From Sandaracinaceae bacterium (lineage in GTDB: Bacteria > Myxococcota_A > Polyangia > Polyangiales > Sandaracinaceae), in assembly GCA_019637095.1 (NCBI GenBank), contig JAHBWG010000043.1, positions 1-64,000 on the forward strand: a stretch of 64,000 bases of DNA, in the 5' to 3' direction. Under the pieces are notes generated by a model. It worked only from the letters and a program-made list of their open reading frames with translations. It was not told where the DNA came from and ran no database searches. Below are positions 1 to 16,848 of the stretch, piece by piece. Position numbers and translations under genes: made by a program. Numbering within the stretch: the first letter of the stretch is position 1; every line of letters starts with the position of its first letter.

Positions 1-189
1 TCTTCGGAGGGGTTGTTCCAACGATGGGGGGCCCCCTCGACCGACGCCCGTCGCTGCGCGACGGGCTGGTCTCGATGCTGCGCCGGGCGCTCGACCTCGA
101 CCACCGCGCGTGGCTGGGCGACGGGCTGGTCTCGGCTGGCTCGACGGTGCGCTGCGCGCTCGAGCTCGACCACCGTCAGTCGCTGGGCG
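1..189. repeat. Dispersed intergenic hairpin repeat, copy A
   Basis: No gene is supported in 1-225. The stretch starts with GGAGGGGTTGTTCCAAC (6-22) and a shared block (30-76) that is nearly identical to the reverse complement of 15850-15896, including a 9-base-pair stem with a 3-base loop at 46-66. Only the loop differs between the two copies (TGC here). Downstream is an imperfect tandem duplication: 59-118 and 119-187 both begin CGACGGGCTGGTCTCG and contain CTCGACCACCG. The left end is cut by the window edge. Confidence 0.7.
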
Positions 190-14845: not shown

Positions 14846-15790
14846 TCACCAGCGGAGCAGCCAGCGCAGCACCTGCGGCTCGAGCGGGCCCGCGTCCGCG
14901 CCGTCGATCGTGAGGTGCGGGAAGCCGATGTGGCCGCCCCCGGTCCACGCCACCTGCACCGCGTCGCTCGCCTGCGCGACCCACGGCCGCACCTGCTCGG
15001 CGGTGACCACCGGGTCCGCCTCCGCGGCGATGAAGAGCGTCGGCACCTCCATCGCGGCGAGGCGCGGGCCGACCGCCTGGCTGTCGTAGTACGCCTGGCG
15101 CGAGGCGAAGCCGAAGCGCGGCACGACCACCTCGTCGTCCCACTCGAGGATCGTGCGGATCTCCTCGACGCGCGCGAGCGACGCAGGGAGCGGCCGCCGC
15201 CGGATGACCGCCGCGCGATACATCTCCTTGAGCCCGTTGAGCACGTGCCACTGGTAGGGCCGCCCGAGCGGGCGCTGGATCGCCTCGGCGCCGTACGCGA
15301 GATCGACGGGTGAGCACACGGTGGCGATCGCGGCGACGCGCGGGTCGCGACCCGGCTCGGTCGCCCAGCGCATGACGATGTGCCCGCCGAGCGAGAAGCC
15401 GACCAGGTAGATGCGCGAGAACCGCGCGAGCCCCTCGCTCGCGAGCATCGCGCGCAGGTCCTCCGTGGTGCCCGCGTGGTAGACGTCCTCGCCGCTGCGG
15501 TCCGCGCCGCGCATGTTGAAGCGCAGGTACGAGGCGCCGGCGCGGTCGCACGCGCGCGCCATCGACATCACGTAGCGGCTGTCGTGGCCCCCGCCGAGCC
15601 CGTGGATGAGCACGAACAGCGTGTCGTGGTGCGGGCGCGCGCGGATCCATCCGGTCAGGCGCAGCCGCCCCATCACCGGGTCGTCGAGGTGGGTCTCCCA
15701 CGGCTCGTCGCGCGGGGCGCGCTCCGGCACGATCGTGTGCGCGAGCTGCGGGAGCAGCGTCCAGAAGTGGCCGTGGATCACCTGCCGCAC
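14846..15790 (-). CDS. Alpha/beta hydrolase, YheT/ABHD family
   Basis: A 314-residue esterase-like hydrolase. The nucleophile Ser133 sits in GFSLGGH, the acid is Asp259 in AEADPVV and the base is His287 in GGGHIGF. An HGLGGGHDS oxyanion segment lies at 63-71. The LRFNMRGADRS stretch (89-99) and overall length are typical of YheT/ABHD1-3-type hydrolases, which act on short or medium-chain acyl esters. The start is a GTG placed 7 bases after a TATAGC box. There is no signal peptide, so it is probably cytoplasmic. Beyond it lies the hairpin-array repeat. Confidence 0.85.
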   Translation of the reverse strand: MRQVIHGHFWTLLPQLAHTIVPERAPRDEPWETHLDDPVMGRLRLTGWIRARPHHDTLFVLIHGLGGGHDSRYVMSMARACDRAGASYLRFNMRGADRSGEDVYHAGTTEDLRAMLASEGLARFSRIYLVGFSLGGHIVMRWATEPGRDPRVAAIATVCSPVDLAYGAEAIQRPLGRPYQWHVLNGLKEMYRAAVIRRRPLPASLARVEEIRTILEWDDEVVVPRFGFASRQAYYDSQAVGPRLAAMEVPTLFIAAEADPVVTAEQVRPWVAQASDAVQVAWTGGGHIGFPHLTIDGADAGPLEPQVLRWLLRW

Positions 15791-15803: not shown

Positions 15804-15849
15804 GCTCAAAGTCCGTCGGTTGATCGAGCGGCCACGTAGCGAGCGCGCG

Positions 15850-16010
15850 ATCGAGACCAGCCCGTCGCGGAGCGACGGGCGTCGGTCGAGGGGGCCCCAT
15901 CGCCCCGCGATGGGGTCGAACGCGGCTGCGCCGCGTTCGCCTTGGGCGGGGGGCCCCGTCGCGGCTTTGCCGCGATGGGGGGAGGGGCTGGAACAGCCCC
16001 TCCGAAGACT
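15850..16010. repeat. Array of five triloop hairpins (repeat copy B)
   Basis: The gap 15804-16014 holds five consecutive near-perfect inverted repeats. They are 15860-15880 (9-bp stem, GGA loop), 15895-15915 (9 bp, CCC), 15917-15939 (10 bp, TGC), 15954-15980 (12 bp with one G-U, TTT) and 15981-16003 (10 bp, GAA). Every loop is exactly 3 bases, while the stem sequences differ. The left part matches copy A (30-76) in reverse orientation, and the right end matches the GGAGGGG-TTC-loop element found at 6, 52844 and 54065. There are no coding features. Confidence 0.8.
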
Positions 16011-16014
16011 CAGC

Positions 16015-16848
16015 TCAGCGCGCGGGGTCTTGCCCGTACGCGTCCCGGAGCAGCGCGTAGAGCTCGGGGTGCTCCGCGCGCAGCTTCTCGGGCCGCTCGA
16101 AGAAGACCTCGGTCGCGACGGCGAAGAACTCCGCTTCGTTCTTCGCGGCGTAGCGGCGCAGGATCGAGCGGCCCTTCGCCGCGCGCGCGGTCTCCGCGTG
16201 CACCACCGAGAGCCACGGCGCGACCGCGGCCCACGGCATGAACCCGGGCACGCCGTCCGCGCGGCCGCGGTCGAAGTCCAGGACGTGCGCGAACTCGTGG
16301 TAGCCGACGTTGTGGCCGTCGCCGTCGCCGCGGAACCCCTGCCGGAGCGCGCGCGCGCTGAAGAGGATCGGCCCCTGCCCGTGGACCATCCCGAGGATGT
16401 TCCCCTCGCCGCGGTAGGTCTCGTCGAACGCCTCGTCGTAGATCACGATGTCGCGCAGCTTCGGGTAGCGGAAGCCGGGGCGGCCGAAGATCAGGACGAC
16501 CGCCGAGGCGGCGACCAGCACCTTCAGCGCGTCGTCGATCTCGGCGCCGCGCGGGCCGGTGATCACGTGCTCGTCGACGAACCAGCGCACCTCGTCCTCG
16601 AAGCGGCGGCGGTCCGCGGGCTCGAGCGCGCGGTAGTAGCCGACCCACTCCTCGAGGGTCGCGCGCCACGCCGGCGGGAACGGCGCGCGCGAGAGCCGGG
16701 CGCGGCGCCGCGTGCGGCGGCTCAGCACGAGCCACGCCGCGAGCGCGATCCCCGCGCCCGCGCCGAGACCGACGGCGAGCCCGAAGCGCAAGCCCAGCAG
16801 GACGCCCGCGAGCGCGCCGAGCCCGAGCGCGTACGCCCAATAACGCAC
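16015..16848 (-). CDS. mtfA: MtfA-family zinc-dependent peptidase
   Basis: A 277-residue protein with one or two N-terminal hydrophobic segments (about 5-42) and a MtfA-type gluzincin domain. The zinc motif is HEFAH at 184-188 (VGYHEFAHVLD), and a downstream acidic helix (AKNEAEFFAVATEVFF) should provide the third ligand. FGRPGFRYPKLRDIVIYDEAF (121-141) is characteristic of the family. E. coli MtfA is a soluble peptidase that binds the repressor Mlc. The predicted membrane anchor here is a difference, and no Mlc gene is in view. The start is GTG 16848, chosen because no upstream in-frame ATG exists. Divergent from the CoA-transferase. Confidence 0.85.
   Translation of the reverse strand: MRYWAYALGLGALAGVLLGLRFGLAVGLGAGAGIALAAWLVLSRRTRRRARLSRAPFPPAWRATLEEWVGYYRALEPADRRRFEDEVRWFVDEHVITGPRGAEIDDALKVLVAASAVVLIFGRPGFRYPKLRDIVIYDEAFDETYRGEGNILGMVHGQGPILFSARALRQGFRGDGDGHNVGYHEFAHVLDFDRGRADGVPGFMPWAAVAPWLSVVHAETARAAKGRSILRRYAAKNEAEFFAVATEVFFERPEKLRAEHPELYALLRDAYGQDPAR

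Follow-up and report, generated by a model that had tools for sequence, protein, structure and literature searches.

The five hairpins that lie between two co-directional genes in the window, by which we mean the whole 64,000-nucleotide stretch of DNA analyzed here, are one copy of an interspersed repeat and not a private array. We consider it likely that this repeat is a non-autonomous, multi-hairpin mobile element of the Myxococcota that is copied to new places at stop codons. An earlier note had described the inverted repeats at 15860-15880, 15895-15915, 15917-15939, 15954-15980, and 15981-16003, each with a stem of 9-12 bp and a loop of three bases (GGA, CCC, TGC, TTT, and GAA), and the window sequence bears out these coordinates and all five loops; four of the stems are perfect (9, 9, 10, and 10 bp), and the remaining stem, at 15954-15980, comprises 12 pairs, one of them G-T. 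A scan of the 64-kb window for perfect hairpins with 3-base loops and stems of at least 9 bp gives eight. Since four of these fall inside the 161-bp array stretch and a fifth belongs to another, incomplete copy close to the start of the window, the cluster is not a matter of chance. The array stretch has a folding energy of -122.8 kcal/mol (z = -6.05), and none of 200 shuffles was as stable.

The element extends past the range described earlier, from approximately 16014 down to approximately 15815. It is presented here on the minus strand, the sense direction being that of both flanking genes, and its parts are then read in the order H5, H4, spacer, H3, H2, H1:

16015 to 16824, minus strand: upstream gene, Peptidase_M90 (MtfA-like; PF06167, 223 bits), TGA stop at 16015-16017, start codon not fixed
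16004 to 16014, minus strand: leader from stop codon to first hairpin, GC TGAG TCTTC; TGAG recurs once after the stop
15981 to 16003, minus strand: hairpin H5, first in the sense direction, GGAGGGGCTG-TTC-CAGCCCCTCC; family core, with compensatory changes in other copies
15954 to 15980, minus strand: hairpin H4, CCCC..GGGG with an AAA loop; family core, diverged in other genera
15940 to 15953, minus strand: conserved C-rich spacer, CCCCCCGCCCAAGG
15917 to 15939, minus strand: hairpin H3, CGAACGCGGC-GCA-GCCGCGTTCG
15895 to 15915, minus strand: hairpin H2, CCCCATCGC-GGG-GCGATGGGG
15855 to 15889, minus strand: hairpin H1, stem GCCCGTCGC/GCGACGGGC plus outer GACC/GGTC; inner and outer changes coupled across copies
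15815 to 15854, minus strand: variable 3′ tail, with letters related to a family consensus in decayed form; where it ends is not fixed
14846 to 15790, minus strand: downstream co-directional gene, alpha/beta hydrolase (PF00561, 63.5 bits)
28 to 134, plus strand: second copy, incomplete, at the contig end and oppositely oriented (sense strand: plus)

This partial copy stands where the contig begins, which makes it probable that the assembly breaks at the repeat.

The earlier note had proposed counting copies, a single occurrence being the result that would speak against a repeat. The 9.25-Mb genome from which the window comes (hereafter the source genome) holds at least 41 near-full-length copies with 81-98% identity (40 of 306 candidates scored). 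The H5 hairpin occurs there 47 times without a mismatch, and the H2 pattern gives 136 matches as against 22 for a control. The unit is approximately 160-215 bp long and consists of leader, H5, H4, C-rich spacer, H3, H2, H1, and variable tail; across copies the H5 end is constant and the tail end is variable, and some copies are tandem or partial. No Rfam family matches the array, the best score being 20.2 bits against a gathering cut-off of 57, and in the open-access literature on myxobacterial hairpin repeats we found no earlier description. Three loci of a related genome, G005 (L109, L110, and L064), carry complete five-hairpin units repeated in tandem approximately every 172 bp, and several of the copies there have T runs directly 5′ of H5. 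At three other loci (L010, L015, and L033) 8-base duplications lie within H2 (CGATGGGGCGATGGGG), as slippage at a hairpin would give.

The folds are maintained by paired changes, the second property on which the earlier note had wished to see the array judged. Among 34 copies of the source genome, scored over 54 pairs, 98.3% of the cells are standard pairs, and both sides have changed in 89 cells, compared with 28.5 +/- 5.5 after shuffling and 0-3 when the partner was slid. Compensatory variants of H5 include CTG/CAG, TTG/CAA, and TGC/GCA; H4 occurs as CCCCAT, CCCCGTC, and CCCCGCT; and the inner stem of H1 (GCCCGTCGC, GGCCATCGC) varies together with its outer stem (GACC/GGTC, GGCC/GGCC). In near-perfect palindromes, template-switch correction during replication can also yield paired changes, without selection. 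Mismatches in the stems comprise seven G-U and 12 A-C, and since G-U shows no excess over A-C, these counts do not tell RNA from single-stranded DNA, or one strand from the other as the one that folds. A switch in which an H5 arm pairs with the C-rich spacer was considered, and none is claimed, because the spacer base opposite the A is not kept complementary in the source genome; a G-quadruplex on the complementary strand and the Shine-Dalgarno-like GGAGG in H5 were likewise considered.

Where the earlier note erred was in holding that the stems share no sequence and have only their structure in common. The letters C(C)CCRTCGC / GCGAYGGG(G) are common to the stems at 15860-15880, 15895-15915, and 15954-15980, and CGCGGCTNNGCCGCG is common to those at 15917-15939 and 15954-15980. 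The repeat conserves GGAGGGG..CCCCTCCCCCC..GGGGCCCCCC, so that conserved letters stand beside covarying stems. In other genera the hairpin order is kept and the stem letters differ, with GGAGGG..CCCTCCCCCC..GGGGCCCCCC retained; H5 and H4 form the core common to all of them. Copies in Sandaracinus have fewer hairpins after this core and loops that are not always of three bases, which makes "five" and "triloop" traits of the subfamily in the source genome. Among the matches listed by a pattern scan of GTDB genomes, true cores were nearly confined to Myxococcota (Sandaracinaceae, Kofleriaceae, Enhygromyxa salina, a Polyangiaceae MAG, and several further Myxococcota); chance matches in other phyla lacked H5. 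With the element of the source genome as the query, matches were obtained in other families of the order as well.

The position of the copies is as regular as their fold. Among the 42 non-tandem copies in the source genome, 37 start 5-12 nt (30 of them 6-7 nt) past an in-frame TGA, verified as the end of an open frame whose third positions are GC-rich; in four others a stop triplet is in place and the frame test failed, and in one an extra H5 intervenes. All 19 non-tandem copies of a first Sandaracinus set lie behind a stop (14 TGA, three TAG, and two TAA), as do most of the 20 lower-scoring copies of a second set. On our reading of these sites, the exceptions take several forms. Three copies (L346, L347, and L353) adjoin the stop of a convergent gene, the element being reversed relative to that gene; one in G006 (L354) sits within an apparent DUF58-type coding region with a 9-base direct repeat at its flanks; and one (L365) is associated with a TGATG stop/start overlap. 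The element follows the stop, usually in the direction of the gene concerned, and the gene stays intact. Part of the bias could reflect survival, as insertions that interrupt genes are lost. Stop codons in G001 are also followed, at L141 and L225, by a different type of dispersed inverted repeat, GACCACGACCACG..CGTGGTCGTGGTC.

A host function might be read into the same observations. Hairpins belonging to a 3′-untranslated region could serve to protect mRNA ends, to process them, or to end transcription, with recombination spreading them and selection keeping them at stops; where the copies sit, and how most of them are oriented with respect to the stop codon, would suit such an RNA element, as would the very stable, covarying fold and the acceptance of TGA, TAG, or TAA. 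We nevertheless think this explanation unlikely. There is no T-run after the last hairpin, some copies have the opposite orientation or lie inside a gene, and comparison of close relatives shows that genes do without the element. G001 (10,327,335 bases) and G006, two Sandaracinus genomes that are complete or close to complete, have dozens of copies each. At 28 of the 33 sites compared between these sister species, the element is absent from the other genome and the otherwise intact gene ends at the corresponding place, although some orthologous regions differ by more than the element and not every empty site is clean. The remaining sites are shared, degenerate, or occupied by another subfamily.

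Individual sites illustrate the point. One clean pair (L219) reads ATC TGA GTTGGCGG... where occupied and ATC TGA CGCGAGG where empty, and a second site (site B) reads GCG TAG TTCGCGGGAGG... as against GCG TGA TCAACGCGG. In the gap between atpD and atpC (L200, 1400-1700, G001) the occupied sequence GAG TAA CGGGAGG... corresponds to GAG TGA TTGGCGATGG in the empty one; the site is also empty in G009, and the gap measures approximately 10 bases in both relatives that have it. The stop of rpoZ is occupied in G001 (L157) and, by another subfamily, in G005 and G008 (L149 and L150), and it is empty in G006, G009, G003, and G007; with two subfamilies at one stop in different genera and four empty relatives, this stop seems to have been a target on two occasions. 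At the site in the window itself, the M90 peptidase and hydrolase genes are adjacent in G001, G002, G005, G006, and G008, and none of these five carries the array. The empty sites in sister species, together with those in the relatives that share the window's gene pair, point to recent and repeated insertion at stop codons, those of the atp operon included. Copies lodged in the atpD-atpC gap and, in the window, between mtfA and the hydrolase gene that follows it in the same direction weigh against a host 3′-end element and also disfavor, at least in its simple form, the suggestion that the array is a transcription end region.

We therefore return to the mobile element and to the enzyme that might move it. 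The earlier note had mentioned a parasite of the REP/RAYT kind, and the first half of that suggestion agrees with the dispersed and tandem copies and the occupied and empty sites; the second half fails, since there are carriers with no Y1 gene. REP elements are palindromic, extragenic, and high-copy, lie mostly downstream of genes, and have GTAG ends that often supply a TAG stop (PMC3733652), and REPINs are tied to RAYTs (PMC3116915). These resemblances, along with the Y1 genes in the source genome, are what would recommend a REP/BIME family of the classical kind, mobilized by a RAYT (a Y1 tyrosine transposase). We find this highly improbable. A search for the Y1 transposase (PF01797) gave no hit in G001, G006, or G009, though the element is abundant in the first two; among the Y1 genes of the source genome, the clear ones are IS200-like with their own, different terminal hairpins; 30 further Y1 loci had no array nearby; the hairpin foot is missing a GTAG or CGTC tag; and there are no inverted doublets. 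A RAYT or IS200 transposase was accordingly rejected as the mobilizer in Sandaracinus, where Y1 is absent, and elsewhere Y1 loci show no adjacency to the element. Two loci of the source genome (L066 and L067, contigs C90 and C124 of G000) hold near-identical IS200-like elements with terminal hairpins CCCCGGC-TCT-GCCGGGG and a 152-aa TnpA.

We give equally little credence to a bacterial retroposon, in which a reverse transcriptase would copy RNA at nicked stop-codon sites and leave one constant end, one ragged end, and variable flanking repeats. The constant H5 end and variable tail have that appearance, reverse transcriptase genes were found in G001, G006, and G005, and a few copies are flanked by direct repeats of unequal length (CGGTAACT, 8 bp, at L359; GGATCGCGC, 9 bp, at L354; and CTCAG, 5 bp, at L346). 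The source genome (96% complete), for all its many copies, has no RVT_1 reverse transcriptase gene, and a general target-site duplication was not seen (permutation p = 0.35 over 46 copies), being clear at only two or three sites. On inspection terminal inverted repeats are absent as well, the two consensus ends not being complementary. Neither the Y1 transposase family nor the reverse transcriptase family, the two examined here, occurs throughout the carrier genomes, and a gene for the mobilizer was not found.

For the mobile element that we favor, a trans-acting enzyme may recognize the folded single strand, either single-stranded DNA or RNA, and the same enzyme would direct the element to stop-codon contexts, the survival of harmless insertions adding to the bias. 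A more specific version is tentative, and we hold it to be possible rather than probable: the element may be mobile DNA whose target is the stop codon itself, whether TGA, TAG, or TAA, with repeated hits on one gene in separate lineages; its enzyme would belong to neither the Y1 nor the reverse-transcriptase family and might take its cue from translation termination or from the end of the mRNA. There is a real chance that the targeting constitutes a new mechanism. If the repeats do move and nearly always come to rest behind stop codons, they would show how a genomic parasite can spread widely without breaking genes and would give a natural system for the study of site choice at gene ends. A family that spans several myxobacterial families and has no Rfam entry also affects annotation, assembly (contigs end in the repeat), and work on mRNA ends. 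With two complete Sandaracinus genomes and dozens of presence/absence sites, the mobilizing enzyme and any effect on mRNA are directly testable.

Several known systems share part of this description. Like intrinsic terminators, the element places a GC-rich hairpin behind a stop codon; unlike them, it has no U-tract, comprises up to five hairpins, and is present or absent in otherwise intact operons. It is non-autonomous, dispersed, short, and hairpin-forming, as MITEs are, but it lacks terminal inverted repeats, and clear target-site duplications, which MITEs have at a fixed length, are seen at a few copies. Subterminal hairpins and insertion in fixed orientation 3′ of a short target would make an IS200/IS605 element look similar, yet TnpA is absent from G001, G006, and G009, and the TnpA copies of the source genome have other ends. 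The closest likeness is to REP, BIME, and REPIN sequences, which are also short-palindromic, high-copy, extragenic, non-autonomous, and often located just behind genes. Whereas REPs are units of 20-40 bp or inverted doublets (PMC3733652), the element strings together as many as five different hairpins, always in one order, over 160-215 bp; some of its carrier genomes have no RAYT, the GTAG/CGTC tag is wanting, and its start is almost always 5-9 nt from a stop codon. Since it spreads without a gene of its own, as REPs do, but departs from them in RAYT, tag, and unit size, we regard it as REP-like in kind rather than as a member of the REP/RAYT system.
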